Shown: one piece after another, positions 1 to 26,469 of the stretch | Layout of the letters: the number at the start of each line of letters is the position of its first letter | How positions within the stretch are numbered: position 1 is the stretch's first letter | Origin: a virus | Direction: 5' to 3' (one strand) | IMG/VR virus record: IMGVR_UViG_3300001533_000229 | Span: 1-26,469 of that record | DNA length: 26,469 nt | The notes under the pieces: model-generated | What the model saw: the letters and a program-made list of their open reading frames with translations, nothing else | What the model was told of the DNA's origin: nothing | Database searches by the model: none | Translations under genes and position numbers: made by a program

Positions 1-3000
1 AAAGCAGTGATACCATTACTCTTTGTTATTATATGTGAAGCACCGCTTGCATTGACCTGTATAGCACTTAAACTGTTTATACTCTGCCAATCTACCCCAT
101 CATTCACTAATATATTAGCTTTTGTAGCTTCTCCACTAGACGCTTCATACGTAGTACTTGCTAATAGATTATAAGGCACACCATCTCCCGGTATTTGTTG
201 CCATCTATGTTCAGGATTCTCTATATTAAACGTGTCTTTGTTTAATACATCAAATGTGGATGAACTACGTAAACGCCAATCTGCTACACTGTATGTTTCT
301 CCCTCTTCTTTTTCAATCACACAATCATATAGTCTTGTGTTGTTTAACCATATGTCTCCTAGAAAATAAGGAGGAGAAGGTTGCTCTTGGAATACTTTTA
401 TATTAGTAGAATTGTTTTGACGCTCTATGATACTTTGTAATGTAGCATCAATATCACCATATGTAGATGTGTTTACATAAGGAGCATCACTACCTAATGA
501 GGTGATACCACTCGACCATACCGGCATCTCAGCAAGGTTATACACAGCACTGTCATATTCTATTGCTTCTATTGTACATTCTAGATTCGCATTATAACCT
601 ATACTGGTGATGACACATTCAGATGTTTCTAGATTATACTCTCCAAAACTGAATAAATCTCCTATGAGTATTTCATCTTCTACTACTGTCTGATCTAGAT
701 AGAGTGTATTTGTAGTACCTTCATATGTGATAAGTTTGTATGTGACAAAATCATCTTCAGTTCTTATGAGGATACCATATTCTTTACCAGCCTCCATAGT
801 ACAAGCTTCATCTACTATGAGTTGAGTGATTAACCCACTATCTACTGTATAGTTAGACACACGCCCTGAACATAATCCTAGAAGAGCTGCGTCATGCTGT
901 ACTAATATCTTATCACCTCTTGTAGCAACAAGTGCGTCCATAGATGTAGTAAAATTAAATATCCTCTGCTGTATCTGCATTGAATTAAGAAAGTATCTTG
1001 CTAAATTATAAGCCTGTATAACGTTATCTACGTATGCTATTTCTATAGTTTCAGCATTAGTAGGGTTATCTGAGTCAGAAGCAGTGATAGTGTCTACTTT
1101 ATACCCTACATTTGCATTAATGAACTGTACTGTAACTCCATCAGGTAATTCTCCTAACACACGAGAAACACTAAATGAGTCTTTAATCATATTTCTAGCA
1201 GTAAACATCTGTATAGGATTAGGACGTTCAATTTCTGGAAGTATAGTGTATTTACCATCTATCACAGCAAACGTTGCTCTTGCAGTACCACAGATAAGTG
1301 TAAGTTCTTGTTCTAATGTTGTTTCAGTACTACACACACCATTACATGTATACCCTTCAGTTTCACACCATGTATGAAAAGCTTTTATAGATGGCATATC
1401 AAAGTATTCTTCAGTAAACGGTATAGGGTGTTGTGTTAATGATTCATTCGTCAATGCTTCGACAAATAAACTAGCAGGATTGTTAGTTTCACGTACAATC
1501 CACGTATCTGTGTCACTATCATAATCTTTTGCAAATCTACTCACAACTACATTTAGATTATTTATTGTACCTGATAACTGTTCTGATGCTTTAATACGTA
1601 ATGCCATGATGACTAATGTACTGGCAGTATCAGCATCTATAGGTGTAATATAATTATTTTCTGTATCTACTTGCTGTGTACGTATATTTGTCCATGTCAG
1701 ATTCTCTAAGTAAGCAGCATCAAGATGGTCTATATTGGTTTTAGTAATTTTGATATCATATTGACCTCTAACAGGAAAATCTATAGTATAAGCAGTCCTA
1801 ACACTTTTACGTGTACCGCCTCTTATAAAATCCGTATACGCAGTTGTCCATGTAGTATCAGTTTTTAATTTATATTCAATAGTAAAATCAACTTGTTTTC
1901 CTACTATCTTTGAATTTGAATTGATTTTTCCAATACCTTGTAATAATCCTAATTCTATATCTGCATGTTTCACATTCATAGATGTTGTGTAGTATTGAGG
2001 AATATCATATGTACAGTTTTTATTGAGAGATGTCTGTGTTACTTGATATGGGTAATGTTTTGGCATCGCTCCATTATAACCAAATGAAATATCAACATCA
2101 GTATAGATACCAGTCTTTTGTAAATATGAGAGCGTGATAGTAGCAGTTTCAGTTTGTAGTGTGTAGGTATCTTTTAATGTAATAACAGTATAGGTTGCAC
2201 TTTCTACTTGATATTCACCTTCATTTAATCCACCTTGAATCAAGACACGTGAACCAGCTTTTATCATAGTGGTATTAAAACCACTACCTGTGATAGTGTT
2301 CTGTGTAGCCTGTATAGTCACAGTTTTTTCTTCATACACACGTTCTGCAAGTGTAGTATCCCCTAATTGAATCATATTCACTACACTAGGCTCATATCCT
2401 ATTACATATAACTGATGAAGATATTGGTTTTGCTTAAATATCTGAGGGGTTTCTTGGCTTGTAGCACTTAATCTCTCTGTAGTATCTACATTATCTGTAT
2501 AATCATTACCACCATAACTAGGTGTTAGCTTTGTAGTACCATATACAACAGGGACTATCTGATATTGCTCTTGTGCATTGAGTTTCCCTTGCATAGAATA
2601 TGTAGGGTCTACATTTAGACCTTCTGGTGGTGATACATAGTCAAAGATACCGCCTGCAATCCATGCAGCTTGACTTGCTGCAGCCATAAGACCCCATGAC
2701 ATACCACCAGTAGCAATACCAATACCAATTACAAGGGCACCAACTCCTATCATTGTGGCTATTTTCCAACCATCTCTACCTGCTGGTAATACTTTAATAA
2801 TCAATGTGTCATCTATATAGGGCTTTATTTCTGCATAATTTTCAGTTATCTCAGTATCATTAAGAATAATAATACATTGTTCTATAGGAATATCTATCTT
2901 CTGTAAATCAAATAGTTCTTGTATAGTGTAATCTACGGAGTCATATTCAATAATTTCTTTTTCAGATGAAAAAGGGTTAGGTTGTACAATAACTTTTACT

Positions 3001-3005
3001 GACAC
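1..3005 (-). CDS. J: Tail tip attachment protein (lambda gpJ-like), partial
   Basis: Seen: a minus-strand frame open from a GTG at 3005 to the window start, 1001 codons with no stop, so the C-terminus is missing. The GTG has a GGAG seven bases upstream and lies inside the end of the NlpC/P60 gene (29-base overlap). Residues 1-80 look like the small beta-grasp domain of lambda tail assembly protein I; residues about 82-115 are a glycine/alanine-rich hydrophobic segment (MIGVGALVIGIGIATGG), as found at the I/J boundary. Next comes a J-like stretch (LNAQEQYQIVPVVYGT) followed by long beta-rich sequence. Known: J-type proteins form the tail tip hub, contact the receptor and seal the tail channel. 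Position as the last gene after M-, L- and K-like genes supports this. The receptor-binding end, usually the most variable part, is outside the window. Confidence 0.85.
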   Translation of the reverse strand, partial: MSVKVIVQPNPFSSEKEIIEYDSVDYTIQELFDLQKIDIPIEQCIIILNDTEITENYAEIKPYIDDTLIIKVLPAGRDGWKIATMIGVGALVIGIGIATGGMSWGLMAAASQAAWIAGGIFDYVSPPEGLNVDPTYSMQGKLNAQEQYQIVPVVYGTTKLTPSYGGNDYTDNVDTTERLSATSQETPQIFKQNQYLHQLYVIGYEPSVVNMIQLGDTTLAERVYEEKTVTIQATQNTITGSGFNTTMIKAGSRVLIQGGLNEGEYQVESATYTVITLKDTYTLQTETATITLSYLQKTGIYTDVDISFGYNGAMPKHYPYQVTQTSLNKNCTYDIPQYYTTSMNVKHADIELGLLQGIGKINSNSKIVGKQVDFTIEYKLKTDTTWTTAYTDFIRGGTRKSVRTAYTIDFPVRGQYDIKITKTNIDHLDAAYLENLTWTNIRTQQVDTENNYITPIDADTASTLVIMALRIKASEQLSGTINNLNVVVSRFAKDYDSDTDTWIVRETNNPASLFVEALTNESLTQHPIPFTEEYFDMPSIKAFHTWCETEGYTCNGVCSTETTLEQELTLICGTARATFAVIDGKYTILPEIERPNPIQMFTARNMIKDSFSVSRVLGELPDGVTVQFINANVGYKVDTITASDSDNPTNAETIEIAYVDNVIQAYNLARYFLNSMQIQQRIFNFTTSMDALVATRGDKILVQHDAALLGLCSGRVSNYTVDSGLITQLIVDEACTMEAGKEYGILIRTEDDFVTYKLITYEGTTNTLYLDQTVVEDEILIGDLFSFGEYNLETSECVITSIGYNANLECTIEAIEYDSAVYNLAEMPVWSSGITSLGSDAPYVNTSTYGDIDATLQSIIERQNNSTNIKVFQEQPSPPYFLGDIWLNNTRLYDCVIEKEEGETYSVADWRLRSSSTFDVLNKDTFNIENPEHRWQQIPGDGVPYNLLASTTYEASSGEATKANILVNDGVDWQSINSLSAIQVNASGASHIITKSNGITA

Positions 3006-17820: not shown

Positions 17821-17973
17821 TTATTTATTTGCTTTATAGCCTGAAGCATAAGCAGCTCTGCCTTGCTTTTCGGCTTTAGCTTTAGCTCTTTTTCTTGAAG
17901 AAGCATTACCTGCTGTATAAGTGTAGCATGTCCCAGATTCACCCCACTTATATTCCAGTTTATTCCCCTTCAC
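17821..17973 (-). CDS. Small basic protein between portal and scaffold (50 aa)
   Basis: A 50-codon gene from GTG 17973, overlapping the portal end by 14 bases. Sequence begins MKGNKLEYKWGESGTCYTYT and continues into a Lys/Arg/Ala-rich helix (SSRKRAKAKAEKQGRAAYAS) ending GYKANK. Support: protein-like composition, one Cys in a conserved-looking context, a fitting place, and a ribosome-site hairpin directly after its stop. Small basic proteins of this form ('...AKxxAxxQGxAxxASGY') occur beside head genes in other phages, but I know no function. It may bind packaged DNA or the portal. Confidence 0.65.
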   Translation of the reverse strand: MKGNKLEYKWGESGTCYTYTAGNASSRKRAKAKAEKQGRAAYASGYKANK

Positions 17974-19588
17974 GCATCTCTGTGCTGGCATCCTGTGCCT
18001 CCGTAACCGTTCCCTTTGACTTTTTAAGGTCGACCAACTTCTCTTCTCTGTCTAATATAGCATTTACTCTAGTTTTCTCCAAGTAAGTGACTTTACTATC
18101 CTTTCCAATTAATGTACCTTCACGTGTACTATTAATTAATTCCAGTTCTTCAGTAGCTGTTCTGGTACTAGGCAGTAATTCTCCACGCTGTAATGCCCAG
18201 ATGTATGACTCATAGCTGATACCACCACGTTCAAGTTCATTACCAAGGGCTATGACCATGTTCGCTTCCATAGCGGTCGGTGTAAAGTCTTTTGTTATAT
18301 CTACAGTAATATCTCTCATAGAAACACCAGTGCCTTTCCAATTCAATATGAAAAACAATGTACGTTCTACAGCAAGTCCTATGGTAGTAGCTATATCAGC
18401 TAAAATACCCTGTTCACCTGCTCTATGTATCATAGCTGCTTCTCCAGACTCAACTTTACTAGCAGTATTTGCTAAGATTTTAGCACCTAATATAGCCATT
18501 AAATCTTCTTTCGCTTTTAATGCATTAGCTATATCTTCAAGTCCTTTCCCCTCATACTCTAAATACTTTGCAGTACCACCCTGAGCTATGAGGATAGCCT
18601 GTGAGCTTCCTATAGAAATATTATCTATATCTTCAGGAATACCAGAGAACACAGCTGTAGGACTGGCTGTCCATGCAATAGCTTTTTCAAAGAAAGCAGT
18701 ATCACGATAATGCGCTAAATTCACATTAATCAAATCGTCAATAATAGATTTAGATAATTCCCATGTGGCACCCTGTGCAGTGATAGGAATAAAAGGAATT
18801 TCCCTCATCTTTTTACCATCATGCTTAGGATATATAATATCTTGTACAACATTATACGTTTGCTTGATATTACCTTTTACAATCTGTGTAGGTACAATAA
18901 TGACTTGTCTATAATAACCTTCATCATCTAACTCTAATACTCTATAGGTAACCTGTTTTTGTGGTGTGTATACAGCAGTATGTACATAATTAATCTCACG
19001 TAATACTACAAGACTAGTCACTATTTTATTATTGACTCTACTTTCTTCCCAGTTCAATATATTCTCTGCTGAATATGTAGTAGCATATGGCGCTAAATTC
19101 AATGCAGCAACATCTGCTCGTGAACGTAGTTTTGTGTCTACTCTAGGAAAGTCAATAAAAATACCTACTCTATTTGTGGTAATAATCTCAACCTCAAGCT
19201 GTTCTATGAATGTGTAGATAGATTCACCTTTGATAGTGAACTTATCTAGAATAGTTCTGTCAGCCTCAGGAACACTGATAGAAGGTAGTTTTCTATTTAA
19301 CAGCCCTCGATAAGCGTCTACTGTCCTGCCGGTTGCATTATACAACATAGCATAATTCACAAAGGCATTATAGTCTGCATTACCTTCTGCTGTGTTGGTG
19401 TGTCCACCAAGCCGTGTAAGATACAACTCACGTTTTGCTTTAGATTTTAGCTGGGATTCCCCTGCTATCACATCTCTAGCCTTTACCCATAATGGAGCAT
19501 ACTTTTCATACAAAGGATGTACATACTCAATGCCATTTATATAGTCTTGTCCATTAGGAGCGACTTCTGCATAATTTGTAATCGCCAT
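17960..19588 (-). CDS. Portal protein (DUF4055-like)
   Basis: 542 residues. N-terminal part has YVHPLYEKYAPLWVKARDVI and GESQLKSKAKRELYLTRLGG, then a stretch ending YNATGRTVDAYRGLLNRKLP, the standard opening of the DUF4055 portal family; residues about 275-300 give LSKSIIDDLINVNLAHYRDT and about 390-400 the region VESGEAAMIHRAGEQGILAD, where portals have a conserved Glu/Arg helix. The C-terminus is charged. Start ATG 19588 is three bases past the TerL stop. Known: forms the dodecameric DNA gate at one capsid vertex and the base for terminase and connector. Confidence 0.9.
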   Translation of the reverse strand: MAITNYAEVAPNGQDYINGIEYVHPLYEKYAPLWVKARDVIAGESQLKSKAKRELYLTRLGGHTNTAEGNADYNAFVNYAMLYNATGRTVDAYRGLLNRKLPSISVPEADRTILDKFTIKGESIYTFIEQLEVEIITTNRVGIFIDFPRVDTKLRSRADVAALNLAPYATTYSAENILNWEESRVNNKIVTSLVVLREINYVHTAVYTPQKQVTYRVLELDDEGYYRQVIIVPTQIVKGNIKQTYNVVQDIIYPKHDGKKMREIPFIPITAQGATWELSKSIIDDLINVNLAHYRDTAFFEKAIAWTASPTAVFSGIPEDIDNISIGSSQAILIAQGGTAKYLEYEGKGLEDIANALKAKEDLMAILGAKILANTASKVESGEAAMIHRAGEQGILADIATTIGLAVERTLFFILNWKGTGVSMRDITVDITKDFTPTAMEANMVIALGNELERGGISYESYIWALQRGELLPSTRTATEELELINSTREGTLIGKDSKVTYLEKTRVNAILDREEKLVDLKKSKGTVTEAQDASTEMREGE

Positions 19589-19591
19589 ATA

Positions 19592-22096
19592 TTATCCCAA
19601 CCTTGTTTTTATACGTTTTGTAGCCTGTCTTTTATGAGTTAAACGATATTTAATCTCATCCATAATATGGTCTTCTTGACCTTTAGAAATTTCTTCTATA
19701 TTAGCTTTATCACGTTCTATGATAGGTAAAACCCTACCAACATGTACACAAGTATTAAAAAAGAAAAGACAAGGTGTACCAGTATCTATATTAGGATATT
19801 TTAAACTATTTTTCAAGTGAGACCTAACTTGTGCCCATCCACGTAAATTTGCCCCTTGTGTCTTATCTGAACGTGTGAAAATATCAAACAATCTATATGA
19901 AGCTTTTCCATAATATCCAGCATTTATCTCATGAGCTATACTAGAGAACATACTATCTATTTTAGGGTTACTATTCCATATTTGATTATCAGCTGGACCG
20001 GGGTGTACACGTCCAACTGTCTTAAAGACGGGGTCTTCTAATTCTTTCTGTTTGATACCTTCCCCTATCTCATAACCTGTTAATCCTAAACCTGTGTCTT
20101 CTTCACCAGTCCAGCCATACCACTCAGCTATTCTGAAAATAGTACCAGCAGGATATGTGATAGTCTCACCTTTTTTTGTTGTAATCTCAGTACCATCACT
20201 TTCAGCATACCAACCTACAGAAAACGGCACAGCAGACCCCCAGTCAAACGCTCTATCAACATACCATGACTCTGGAATCTCAAACGGCTCAATCATATGT
20301 GTAGAGGCATCCCATACGTCATCAAACATACCACCAGCAACAGCGTCCCAATCACCTTCCAACAGCATACGAGCAGTAGCTTCATTACCTACTGCCATGA
20401 CACGCCCTTCATACTCTTCTCTGTCAATCGTAGGATTATCATCTAATGTAGCTGGAATGAACTGACGAAGCATGCCCCCTTTATTTTTAGGCATCTGCAC
20501 AATACTTAAAGGTGGGACTATCTTTACAAATTCTCTACGCAAAAAATTATGACTTATGCCACCGGGATTTGTTCCTAATAATATTCTAGGAAAAAACTTC
20601 TTACCCCACTTTTCTGCAAATGCTTTGGGGGGTTCCCACGAAGTAGGCAGACGTACACGTGTACGTAAAAACTCGTATTTCGCTTTAGAAAAGTGGGTAG
20701 CCTCGTCAATCATCAACACACCCATCTCAGCACCCTGATATTTATACATATCTTTTTCATATTGACAATGACATAAATGTATAATAGACCCATTCATAAA
20801 GCTATTATTAGCCCCATTTCTAAACTGTATCTGATAGGCTGTGTTATTTATCTTTACAAAACCACTATTAACAGCAGCACTAAGTAGCTCATGAAAAGCC
20901 CCCGGACCAATCATATGGTTATCTTCAAGTTCTTTTCTAGTTAAACGAAATAAATATATCTGTAACCCCGGACATTCCATAGCCCATATAATAGCTGCAA
21001 CACGCATCAAGAAGCTATTATGTGTAGGGATTAAATGCTCCCCTGCTAAATATAAATGATTAGGGCTATCAACCTGTATACACTGCTTGGGTACATCAGG
21101 GATTTTCTCAACATTTATTATAGTATAATGTACATGCATTTTCATTATTGCATTACGCTTAACTTTTTCATAACGAGCTAACTTAAAAGATGTACGTGAT
21201 AAAGGCATTTTAGGGTAGAATCGTACCCTAAAATTTGTATCATTTTTATTACTTACATAGTCAAAATTAGCTACTTGTGAATAATGCCCTAAACTAATAA
21301 CAAGGAAATTTATATCACTAGCTAATTCATATGTCTTGAACTGTATTTCTGTTTGGCTGTTTACATATATAGAACCTACAATATCAAGGAAACCCTGCAA
21401 AAGTGCTATACGTTGTTCTACATCCCCATATAAATAATTAAATGGAATATGTTTATTATCATCACTAACGCCTACTTTGTCTAACAACGCTTTCATTTCA
21501 GCAGGATTAGTATATCTACCACCTTCATATTCTGTTAATTGCCACGTACTGCCCTTACTGACACTTTGCTGTTTTAATATATTACACTTTTTATCATATA
21601 AAAAACCACCAGCTAACCACATACCAAACATATAAGCTGGCATTGGTTGTTCTTTAGTAGGAAATTGCAAAGGTTTAGTAGCATATATGTAATGATTAGC
21701 ACGCTTGTCTGCTTCAACACGCAATGTGCGCCCAATTTCTTCAGTAGTATGTACTTTATGTACTCCTGTCCTATTCCTTCTATCTTTACCGGATATCGTA
21801 GCCCATTCATGTCTACCATCACAAACTAAAGATATATTATGTAAGAACGACACTTTGTAGGTGTTATCATACACAATATCACTTTTAGCTAAAACATTAC
21901 ATGGTTTTCCATTTTCATCAAATACTTGGTCACCAACTTCAAGCGTCTCCATGGTTTTCCACCCAGTAGTAGTGAGCATGGGAGTATCCAATGCTAATGC
22001 CTTACCACCACCAACAGCCCCTCCATATAATACTTCATTAGCAGGGGTAGTCAGTGCTTCTAGTTGCTTGGGATGTAAATGTATATCTAATGCCAT
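19592..22096 (-). CDS. terL: Terminase large subunit with intein
   Basis: 834-residue precursor: 506 residues of terminase plus a 328-residue intein at residues 33-360. The Walker A motif GGAVGGGK-S is split exactly between Lys32 and Ser361; without splicing the ATPase cannot form. Walker B is MGVLMIDEATHF (about 458-469). The RNase H-like nuclease domain has DRAFDWGSAVPFS (Asp618), ADNQIWN (Asp703) and a C-terminal DHIMDEIKYRLT block. Known: the large subunit pumps DNA into the procapsid and cuts it. It lies between TerS and portal. Activity must wait for protein splicing, which may delay packaging after synthesis. Confidence 0.93.
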   Translation of the reverse strand: MALDIHLHPKQLEALTTPANEVLYGGAVGGGKALALDTPMLTTTGWKTMETLEVGDQVFDENGKPCNVLAKSDIVYDNTYKVSFLHNISLVCDGRHEWATISGKDRRNRTGVHKVHTTEEIGRTLRVEADKRANHYIYATKPLQFPTKEQPMPAYMFGMWLAGGFLYDKKCNILKQQSVSKGSTWQLTEYEGGRYTNPAEMKALLDKVGVSDDNKHIPFNYLYGDVEQRIALLQGFLDIVGSIYVNSQTEIQFKTYELASDINFLVISLGHYSQVANFDYVSNKNDTNFRVRFYPKMPLSRTSFKLARYEKVKRNAIMKMHVHYTIINVEKIPDVPKQCIQVDSPNHLYLAGEHLIPTHNSFLMRVAAIIWAMECPGLQIYLFRLTRKELEDNHMIGPGAFHELLSAAVNSGFVKINNTAYQIQFRNGANNSFMNGSIIHLCHCQYEKDMYKYQGAEMGVLMIDEATHFSKAKYEFLRTRVRLPTSWEPPKAFAEKWGKKFFPRILLGTNPGGISHNFLRREFVKIVPPLSIVQMPKNKGGMLRQFIPATLDDNPTIDREEYEGRVMAVGNEATARMLLEGDWDAVAGGMFDDVWDASTHMIEPFEIPESWYVDRAFDWGSAVPFSVGWYAESDGTEITTKKGETITYPAGTIFRIAEWYGWTGEEDTGLGLTGYEIGEGIKQKELEDPVFKTVGRVHPGPADNQIWNSNPKIDSMFSSIAHEINAGYYGKASYRLFDIFTRSDKTQGANLRGWAQVRSHLKNSLKYPNIDTGTPCLFFFNTCVHVGRVLPIIERDKANIEEISKGQEDHIMDEIKYRLTHKRQATKRIKTRLG
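21017..22000 (-). other. Class 3 intein with inactivated LAGLIDADG endonuclease
   Basis: 328 residues inside TerL, starting at Ala33 (ALALDTPMLTTTGW) and ending LIPTHN-Ser. The first residue is Ala rather than Cys/Ser, and the class 3 triplet is present: Trp98 after the block B His (GRHEW), Cys339 in block F (QCIQVDSPNHLYLAG), Thr358 in block G (PTHN). The middle holds two LAGLIDADG-like motifs, MFGMWLAGGF (about 156-165) and LLQGFLDIVGS (about 232-242). In both, the residue where the catalytic Asp should precede Gly is replaced (Gly163, Val240). So splicing looks intact but homing activity looks lost. Boundaries are set by the restored Walker A. Confidence 0.9.
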
Positions 22097-22106
22097 TATA
22101 TTATTC

Positions 22107-22700
22107 CTATATTAATTTCGGTGCTACATACTCCATAATCTTTGGTTCTTTTTTCTTTTGATTTGTTATGTCAATCTTCACAACAAAGCCAGCTTCAGTT
22201 TTGTCTGTATCATCATGAACCAAACCTACAAAATTAGAAAGTTCTTTTAGTGCTTTATTTCTATCAGCAAATTGAATCTCAACCCAGCGATAATCCTGAT
22301 TCTTTGTATGTACATACGGCTTAACACCATCAATAACAACTGCTTTTGTGCCTAACACTTCTTTATAATTGGAGATGTCAAATCTAGGCTCTCCCTCTTC
22401 TGTTATGATATCAAACACATTGTAGAAAGCACGTTGCCATAATACATCAATAATCATTGATTTAAGTTTTCCAACCTTATCACCTAGGACAGCCTTTACA
22501 AATTCCTCTACCGCTTTATTGATAGTATCTTTTTTCATAAACTTTGCTGGAGTTTTAGCACCTACAGCTTTTGAGGCTAAAGTCGCATTGAATCCATTAG
22601 AGCAATATTCAGACACAAATAACTGTTCCTGTGGTGATAGTTTTTGAAAATATTCTGATTCATTCTGTAATCTATTTATCGTACCTTCATTATCAATCAT
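22107..22700 (-). CDS. terS: Terminase small subunit
   Basis: 197 residues. The N-terminal part LSPQEQLFVSEYCSNGFNAT followed by ASKAVGAKTPAKFMKKDTIN is the 'L-T-x-x-Q-x-x-F-x-x-x-Y-x-x-x-x-N-A-T-x-A-A' helix-turn-helix of the Terminase_2 family; a helical oligomerisation part follows and the rest (about 120-197) is beta-rich with a charged tail. ATG 22700 overlaps the upstream gene by four bases (ATGA). Known: recognises the packaging site and feeds DNA to TerL. A packaging site is often within or near this gene, but I cannot point to one by eye. Confidence 0.85.
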   Translation of the reverse strand: MIDNEGTINRLQNESEYFQKLSPQEQLFVSEYCSNGFNATLASKAVGAKTPAKFMKKDTINKAVEEFVKAVLGDKVGKLKSMIIDVLWQRAFYNVFDIITEEGEPRFDISNYKEVLGTKAVVIDGVKPYVHTKNQDYRWVEIQFADRNKALKELSNFVGLVHDDTDKTEAGFVVKIDITNQKKKEPKIMEYVAPKLI

Positions 22701-25435: not shown

Positions 25436-25574
25436 TCAAGCATAATCCATTTTACACACCTTCACACCCTGTATATAAAACGAATCACTCCCCATCTCCC
25501 CGGGCGTCCAATCCATCCCTAACTGCATAATCTCATCCCAACTTTTTCGTAGCCAAAAACTGTACTATTTTCAT
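25436..25574 (-). pseudogene. Small leader gene with +1 frame break
   Basis: ATG 25574 has AAAGGAG five bases upstream, the best ribosome site in the region, yet the frame stops after 13 codons (MKIVQFLATKKLG). A +1 shift in the A5 run (25543-25547) gives a continuous 45-codon product ending SWDEIMQLGMDWTPGEMG, SDSFYIQGVKV and CKMDYA, with protein-like composition right up to the zinc ribbon gene. Either a true frameshift, a homopolymer sequencing error, or frameshift/slippage-controlled expression. Product not recognised. Confidence 0.5.
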
Positions 25575-25583
25575 ATTATCTCC

Positions 25584-25604
25584 TTTATCAATATATGAAG
25601 ATTA
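25584..25604 (-). repeat. 21-bp direct repeat, copy 1
   Basis: Plus-strand TTTATCAATATATGAAGATT plus a final A; identical to 25698-25718. It ends exactly next to the GGAG ribosome site of the small leader gene at 25574, so on the minus strand the leader mRNA starts in or near it. Confidence 0.8.
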
Positions 25605-25642
25605 CCTAATGTCTGAATATCACTAGGTAAAACTACTACCTA
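25603..25642 (-). promoter_or_regulatory. Possible alternative-hairpin attenuator
   Basis: TACCTA (25603-25608), TAGGTA (25624-25629) and TACCTA (25637-25642): the middle word can pair with either neighbour, with loops of 15 and 7 bases. Only 6 bp each, so weak, but the two are mutually exclusive and lie between the two 21-bp repeats ahead of the leader gene. Confidence 0.3.
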
Positions 25643-25662
25643 ACTCACCACTATATAACAAC

Positions 25663-25687
25663 TTGACATAAATCTAAAAACTGTCAA
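25663..25687. promoter_or_regulatory. Inverted TTGACA dyad
   Basis: TTGACA (25663-25668) and its complement TGTCAA (25682-25687) 13 bases apart: a -35-like word faces each way. Rightward, a TATAAC follows 19 bases after TTGACA (25688-25693), a long but usable spacer; leftward I see no matching -10 at 16-18 bases. It may be an operator rather than two promoters. Confidence 0.35.
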
Positions 25688-25697
25688 TATAACCAGT

Positions 25698-25718
25698 TTT
25701 ATCAATATATGAAGATTA
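25698..25718 (-). repeat. 21-bp direct repeat, copy 2
   Basis: Exact second copy of the 21-bp element, starting 114 bases right of copy 1. The flanks differ on both sides, so identity is confined to the element, as expected for a binding site rather than a duplication. Confidence 0.8.
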
Positions 25719-25782
25719 TGCTATATAACCTACTCTTTCGAGAAAGCTCACCACGGCACACGAAATAGTAATATGGTAAATC

Positions 25783-25800
25783 TATACTACTTTTAGTATA
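25783..25800. repeat. AT-rich inverted repeat
   Basis: TATACTA-CTTT-TAGTATA: a 7-bp perfect stem with a 4-base loop. No T tract follows on either strand, so it is more likely an operator or cruciform-prone site than a terminator. Confidence 0.5.
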
Positions 25801-25923
25801 AAATGCCACCACGCCAATCCTCGTAAGCCTCAACAGTACATGTAATCACCTCTATATACGCAATATTACTATATTTTTATTATTTTTACTAGAGTGTGCA
25901 TGAATTACCTTGATATTATTATA

Positions 25924-25932
25924 GGGGGGGGG
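25924..25932. repeat. G9 homopolymer tract
   Basis: Nine consecutive G in an otherwise very AT-rich stretch, at the border where the TATAG-rich sequence begins. Homopolymers of this kind are hotspots of length change and of sequencing error. Confidence 0.8.
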
Positions 25933-26177
25933 CTAAGCGTAAAGGAATATATAAAACTTAAGTAAGTGTGGATGCATAGAGTCTAACATATAAAATAGGT
26001 GTATAGACCCTAGGAATACAGAATATAGTGTATATAACAGAATAGCGTGTATAGGCGTATAGGGCTTAGAATACACCATAAAGGAACTATATACAGAAAT
26101 AAAGAGGACAGAGGAGAGAGGGTTTGATAGAAACTGCCCTCCCCATTGCCATACTATTTATTATGCCGGGGTATGTA

Positions 26178-26207
26178 TATACTATCGATAGTATAGTATC
26201 GATACTA
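26178..26207. repeat. Two overlapping ATCGAT palindromes
   Basis: TATACTATCGATAGTATA (26178-26195) is a perfect 18-bp palindrome, and TAGTATCGATACTA (26194-26207) a perfect 14-bp palindrome, overlapping by two bases with centres 14 bases apart. They directly precede the tandem array and share its 14-base step. Confidence 0.8.
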
Positions 26208-26469
26208 CGGCATAGATAGTACGGCATAGATAGTATAGCATAGATGGACTTATATAGATGGACTTATATAGATAAAAATATATAGATACCAGGATCAGGA
26301 TATATATAGATAAAAATATATAGATACCAGGATCAGGATCAGGATCAGGTAGATACCAGGATATATATAGATAAAAATATATAGATAAAAATATATAGAT
26401 AAAAATATATAGATACCAGGATCAGGATCAGGATCAGGTAGATACCAGGATATATATAGATAAAAATAT
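26208..26469. repeat. Modular AGAT tandem array based on a 14-bp unit
   Basis: Exact units in order: CGGCATAGATAGTA twice (26208-26235); AGATGGACTTATAT twice (26242-26269); AGATAAAAATATAT (26270-26283); a 24-bp CAGGAT unit; AGATAAAAATATAT (26308-26321); then an 89-bp composite made of a 29-bp unit with (GGATCA)3, an 18-bp AGATACCAGGATATATAT and three AGATAAAAATATAT (26322-26410). The composite begins again at 26411 and runs off the window, so true length is unknown. Seven GATC and five CCAGG sites occur in the last 180 bases. Reading as origin iterons is possible, not shown. Confidence 0.9.

Follow-up and report, generated by a model that had tools for sequence, protein, structure and literature searches.

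A class 3 intein with a predicted inactive homing endonuclease in the terminase Walker A motif of a phage lineage

Introduction

Why should an intein in the P-loop of a phage terminase keep a full-length homing endonuclease domain from which both catalytic acids are missing? The question is raised by the stretch of 26,469 nucleotides analysed here, positions 1-26,469 of the IMG/VR record IMGVR_UViG_3300001533_000229, which is called the window and to which all coordinates refer. The homing cycle of inteins has been described, and a mutualism between the splicing (HINT) domain and the endonuclease (HEN) domain has been proposed for archaeal inteins (Beyer and Iwai, PMC8966425).

Results

The terminase gene and its neighbours

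The translation and the profile search showed that the open reading frame (ORF) 22096..19592 on the minus strand, with a length of 834 aa, encodes the terminase TerL. Its identity is supported by the match to phrog_979 (E 1.4e-29) and by the packaging-gene context, with TerS upstream and the portal gene downstream. The parts of the locus are as follows:

22107..22700, minus strand: terminase small subunit, upstream of TerL (PF03592, 8.7e-08; phrog_51)
22001..22096, minus strand: TerL N-extein, residues 1-32, ending GGAVGGGK (Walker A to Lys), from the translation
21017..22000, minus strand: class 3 intein of 328 aa, Ala1 to Asn328 (alignments, profile match, translation)
19592..21016, minus strand: TerL C-extein of 474 aa, from Ser+1 (profile matches, translation)
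17960..19588, minus strand: portal protein, downstream of TerL (DUF4055 / phrog_145, 1.2e-96)

The N-extein was aligned with intein-free TerLs (GGAAGGGKSHLMR), and Ser+1 of the C-extein is at once the Walker A serine and the C-terminal splice nucleophile. A second contig of 85 kb, which is 99.8% identical to the window, carries an identical intein. The Rfam search of the window gave no match. At the end of the window (25500-26469), no plausible gene was recognised over about 1 kb. This part has tandem repeats of a 14-nt period (ATAGATAAAAATAT / ATAGATGGACTTAT), and a direct repeat of 79 nt, perfect and with 89-nt spacing, extends to the end of the contig. The virus's 85 kb contig likewise appears to end at this repeat region.

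Class and splicing residues of the intein

The insert is a class 3 intein in the TerL Walker A motif, which it splits between Lys and Ser (GGAVGGGK^SFLMR), occupying residues 33-360 of the TerL ORF. It starts with Ala1, so that there is no Cys or Ser nucleophile at residue 1, and it ends in THN with Ser at +1. The WCT triad, which defines class 3 inteins (PMC7664689), is formed by Trp98, Cys339 and Thr358 of the ORF, corresponding to W66, C307 and T326 of the intein in blocks B, F and G, respectively. These residues are invariant in the alignment of 13 phage and metagenome inteins, and also among 68 aligned relatives wherever the column exists (one truncated locus has no W column). The splicing domain comprises:

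21791..22000, minus strand: residues 1-70 of the intein with blocks A and B, forming the N-terminal part of the HINT domain (6BS8/6RIX by profile and by fold)
21803..21811, minus strand: block B His64 and Trp66, the W of WCT (alignments, translation)
21017..21145, minus strand: C-terminal part of the HINT domain, residues 286-328, blocks F and G (profile and fold match)
21080..21082, minus strand: block F Cys307, the C of WCT and the class 3 initiating nucleophile (alignments)
21017..21025, minus strand: block G Thr326-His327-Asn328, i.e., the T of WCT, the penultimate His and the cyclising Asn (alignments)

PHROG profiles of intein-bearing TerLs matched the insert with E values of 1e-17 to 1e-21, and the structures of class 3 DnaB inteins matched it by profile at about 1e-35, whereas the Pfam and NCBIfam searches gave no family for the intein itself. 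The AlphaFold2 model of the intein (pLDDT 83, pTM 0.78) was compared with known structures. Over the splicing domain it matched 6BS8 with Z 22.2, rmsd 1.6 A and 40% identity (126 residues aligned), the values for 6BS8 and 6RIX together being Z 22, rmsd 1.6-1.9 and 37-40% identity, and the whole-length model matched PI-SceI with Z 23.5. The initial annotation had placed a 328-residue intein within GGGK-S of the terminase at 21017-22000 and had called it class 3 from the Ala start and Trp98/Cys339/Thr358. The site was borne out by the translation and the extein alignment, and the class by the alignments of 13 and 68 sequences and the fold match. The comparison with DnaB and TerL inteins that it had proposed matched blocks A, B, F and G by profile and fold, the homology in blocks F and G being present. 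With the splicing residues intact and an intact P-loop needed, the intein is expected to splice by the class 3 route, and TerL packaging is predicted to depend on splicing because of the position of the intein in the P-loop.

The tblastn search of the intein in 50,697 phage records revealed a relative in 532 of them, all below 60% identity and the best at about 31-33%; these relatives lie in TerL, DnaB and Cas4/RecB-like exonuclease genes. The mycobacterial class 3 DnaB inteins MsmDnaB1 (6BS8) and MchDnaB1 (6RIX) resemble the window intein in the WCT triad, Ala1, the P-loop-type insertion and the HINT fold. The solved MsmDnaB1 and MchDnaB1 are, however, 139-145 aa long and have no endonuclease domain, while the window intein has a full LAGLIDADG domain and resides in TerL. 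Phage inteins of the same class, many of them in TerL, are known from mycobacteriophages (PMC5050341), Clavibacter phage CMP1, Rhodobacter phage RcKickapoo and Vibrio phage 489E54-1, and the TerL1-a site lies between the P-loop Lys and the next nucleophile (PMC5050341). Unlike the window intein, to which they are about 31-33% identical, the aligned phage relatives keep WLGDG and DTDG/DSDG.

Loss of both catalytic acids

The endonuclease domain was located by the match to PI-SceI:

21215..21652, minus strand: LAGLIDADG endonuclease core, residues 117-262, predicted catalytically dead (PI-SceI match; both acids lost)
21608..21610, minus strand: Gly131 (GGT) at the position of PI-SceI D218, the first catalytic Asp (PI-SceI alignment; Gly in 6/6 of the clade described below)
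21377..21379, minus strand: Val208 (GTA) at the position of PI-SceI D326, the second catalytic Asp (PI-SceI alignment; V/S/A/R/R/R in the clade)

In the profile alignment, D218 of PI-SceI (LWIGDG) stands opposite Gly131 (MWLAGG) in block C (YMFGMWLAGG), and D326 (LIDSDG) opposite Val208 (FLDIVG) in block E (LLQGFLDIVG). The model has both LAGLIDADG helices (122-129 and 194-208), and G131 and V208 each sit at the C-terminal end of their own helix, where the catalytic acid of a LAGLIDADG endonuclease is expected; both metal sites thus lack their acid. Asp occupies both positions in all ten annotated phage relatives aligned and in the outgroup TerL L008. The closest remaining acids are D136, which lies five positions further along, and D206, which is the conserved but non-catalytic Asp in DxDG.

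A catalytic acid shifted by one or two residues, which the initial annotation had named as the finding that would speak against it, was looked for in the alignment with 12 relatives and PI-SceI and ruled out. Among the related inteins described below, only that of L026, whose second site is Arg, has a D adjoining the lost first position (YVNGDG). An assembly error as the source of the losses was also ruled out, because the same sequence is present in the 85 kb contig and the same losses occur in five other lineages. The replacement of both acids (WLAGG, DIVG) was therefore confirmed at G131 and V208. Judging from these residues, the HEN domain is probably catalytically dead, and the earlier view of an intein able to splice but unable to home is supported as an expectation, the splicing residues being intact and both acids gone.

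Distribution and inheritance of the intein

Relatives were sought by extein-based scans, so that their retrieval was independent of the intein. Five further distinct TerLs were found at 64-77% extein identity to the window TerL: L003 (identical to L002), L023, L026, L027 and L107. All six TerLs of the lineage carry the intein at the same Walker A site, and all six have lost both acids. The motifs at the acid sites are FCNGG/DISG in L003, WLIGG/DVAG in L023, YVNGDG/DVRG in L026 and FLGGG/DVRG in L027 and L107; hence, position 131 is Gly in every member, while position 208 is V, S, A, R, R and R. As both losses are found in the whole clade and Gly131 is common to all, the acids were lost in the common ancestor of the six. 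A scan of genome contigs gave 19 TerLs, the best at 41-43% identity, with no close lineage member among them.

The search for intein-free alleles, which had also been proposed, yielded about 72 outgroup TerLs that could be read, with identities of about 38-45%, nearly all of them with an uninterrupted GGGKS and intein-free, against 6/6 intein-bearing members in the clade. In two of the outgroup TerLs, L008 and L083, this site is occupied by an intein that still has both acids. The inteins of the clade are set apart from the acid-intact ones with 99-100% tree support. The extein topology was not rejected by the intein (AU p 0.11) or by the HEN domain alone (0.30), and the splicing domain prefers the extein topology. 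The best intein tree joins the window with L003 and the extein tree joins it with L023. This conflict within {window, L003, L023} is not significant, and some exchange of intein sequence is possible in view of it. The simplest reading is mainly vertical inheritance of an immobile intein with TerL.

Selection on the endonuclease domain

Throughout the clade, synonymous sites are almost saturated, and the omega of saturated pairs was not used alone; L027/L107 is consequently the only pair with an unsaturated omega. As the two have the same dead motifs, their split postdates the acid loss. The Nei-Gojobori omega of this pair was 0.21 for the HEN core (bootstrap CI 0.13-0.33), 0.12 for the splicing domain and 0.07 for the extein. 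In the codon model on six sequences, the tree-wide omega was 0.085, 0.037 and 0.030, respectively, and omega=1 for the HEN core was rejected at a cost of 112 lnL units. Omega well below 1 means that the dead core is constrained.

The acid-intact control was a TerL clade with splicing-domain divergence equal to that of the dead clade. The ratio of HEN to splicing-domain distance was 1.45 (1.23-1.73) in the dead clade vs. 0.82 (0.66-1.04) in the control. The tree-wide omega of the control HEN was 0.058, and the 0.085 of the dead domain is not far above it; the claim of relaxation therefore rests on the relative-rate comparison. The dead HEN domain is thus under purifying yet relaxed selection. 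It measures 173 aa vs. 179 aa in acid-intact inteins, no member of the six being shortened, and its net charge is not lowered. Within the dead core, conservation is highest in the LAGLIDADG helices, in the short helix YxxGxY and in the strand RVRF (also WRVRF). The mean identity of strand 211-222 was 0.27 in the dead clade vs. 0.77 in the acid-intact one; from its position after the second LAGLIDADG helix, this strand is probably a DNA contact. The pattern of conservation suits a retained scaffold better than retained DNA recognition.

Other inteins found in the survey

The TerL of L107 (IMGVR_UViG_3300025362_000005, 90 kb) carries a second intein at positions 1954-3003, of class 1 type (Cys1, ...SGN^S), with its own LAGLIDADG domain and the site GGISH^, so that two inteins reside in one terminase gene. 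In the phage of L003, a ribonucleotide-reductase-like gene (L202, G002:C1:1-4600) has a class 1 intein whose LAGLIDADG acids look intact (FGDG, FDADG). A widespread lineage of TerL inteins at KKxGKx^S was found at many loci (L128-L188, e.g., L128, L150 and L183) from many metagenomes; these have Asn for the first LAGLIDADG acid (WLGNG) and an intact second one (DSDG), i.e., a half-altered active site. An unrelated TerL class 3 intein (L136:3001-4005) has lost both acids (WLGKG, DSGG), apparently independently. The acid-intact class 3-like intein of the distant TerL L083 (1753-4455), at the same Lys^Ser site, starts with Met and not with Ala or Ser.

Discussion

With the class and site of the intein, both acid losses and their sharing by the clade, the near-congruent trees and the purifying but relaxed selection obtained by computation, the locus is probably best explained by a splicing class 3 intein that has been immobile since the ancestral loss of the acids, is inherited mainly vertically with TerL and keeps its dead HEN both as a scaffold (HINT-HEN mutualism) and because precise deletion is almost always lethal. 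Splicing would begin with the attack of Cys307 on the bond preceding Ala1; the acyl group would then move to Ser+1, and the cyclisation of Asn328 would leave GGGK joined to S and the P-loop restored. Homing would have been lost in the common ancestor of the phage lineage, as both metal-binding acids of the LAGLIDADG nuclease were lost, and the intein would afterwards have been passed on mainly vertically with TerL. The splicing domain would have come to depend on the dead HEN as a folding scaffold. The dead HEN would then be kept because splicing depends on it and because exact excision from a P-loop codon would almost always be lethal, and the scaffold is the most likely reason for its retention.

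The archaeal VMA inteins offer both outcomes. The splicing of TliVMA is greatly reduced once its HEN is deleted (PMC8966425), and the present clade would fit this type, in which splicing is weakened without the HEN. PhoVMA of Pyrococcus horikoshii (7QST) resembles the window intein in that active-site residues are missing from both LAGLIDADG helices while the architecture is kept; both acids are absent and the domain fold is preserved, and its HINT domain still splices without the HEN (PMC8966425). A dead HEN can therefore persist without mutualism, which counts against the scaffold as the reason. PhoVMA is, however, a single class 1 case in an archaeal VMA with block E partly truncated, whereas here a six-member phage clade shows no truncation. 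Dead HENs are likewise kept across a lineage, and in an essential ATPase, in the class 1 yeast VMA inteins (PMC1508164). Their dS/dN is below 4 in 70/74 comparisons (PMC1508164), against about 4.8 in the unsaturated dead pair L027/L107, so that the dead domain here is more constrained than the yeast VMA ones.

PhoVMA also lends some weight to a less likely account, in which the loss of the intein from the P-loop codon is nearly impossible and the constraint reflects residual folding stability against aggregation, not dependence of splicing. The position of the insert between the invariant Lys and Ser agrees with it, as does the best conservation falling on the core LAGLIDADG helices and the WRVRF strand. 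In-frame HEN deletions giving mini-inteins are, however, common elsewhere and would lift the need for stability, and none of the six has one. The initial annotation had considered a relic that had lost homing but not yet the domain. In such a relic, following the classic homing cycle, homing would have been lost recently and the domain would be decaying neutrally, to end as a mini-intein or to be lost. That cycle does predict the loss of catalytic acids after fixation (PMC8966425, PMC1654191), and, measured against the splicing domain, the dead HEN changes more quickly than the HEN of acid-intact inteins. Against this, the loss is older than the divergence of the six TerLs, which share 64-77% identity, the length is kept throughout, and omega stayed well under 1 after the loss. 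A transient relic is thus strongly disfavoured and unlikely, and the dead intein is a long-lived, lineage-wide state.

The initial annotation had also offered control of terminase activation by splicing as a possible reason for retention, for which dependence of the splicing domain on the HEN scaffold is the plainer alternative, with precedents in PMC8966425. Regulation of splicing by the dead HEN, e.g., via binding of DNA or TerS, would free the TerL ATPase only at packaging. The P-loop site makes splicing an on-switch for the ATPase, and the domain is retained in the whole clade, constrained after catalysis was lost and undiminished in net charge; redox control of splicing has been published for the class 3 DnaB intein of M. 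smegmatis (PMC6195587). The putative DNA-contact strand is nevertheless the least constrained relative to acid-intact inteins (211-222), and no regulatory partner or signal was found, which makes such exaptation improbable. Cleavage of DNA through other residues, or homing supplied in trans by another endonuclease, is very unlikely. The constraint on the domain would agree with it, the dS/dN of L027/L107 being above the value of 4 used as a rule in PMC1508164, and the second LAGLIDADG intein of L107 could be a source in trans. Both metal-binding acids are, however, missing in the entire clade and the putative DNA-contact strand is weakly conserved. In the 85 kb contig, which is possibly incomplete, neither LAGLIDADG_3 nor a class 3 intein turned up a second time and no HNH_3 match exceeded the threshold, these being the families covered by the search.

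The domain structure and the splicing chemistry of such inteins were already known, while the phage clade and the evidence of selection appear to be new within the open-licence literature; no such class 3 case was described in the limited set of open-licence papers searched. According to the homing-cycle model a dead HEN should decay and then be deleted, yet this clade keeps a full-length, constrained dead HEN in 6/6 members. Together with acid-intact and intein-free outgroups, the immobile clade makes the dependence of splicing on a HEN scaffold testable with a natural series of class 3 sequences. It is rather unlikely, but conceivable, that the dead HEN has become a co-opted regulator or obligate chaperone of TerL maturation; if so, an immobile selfish element would now be a required part of the assembly of the packaging motor.
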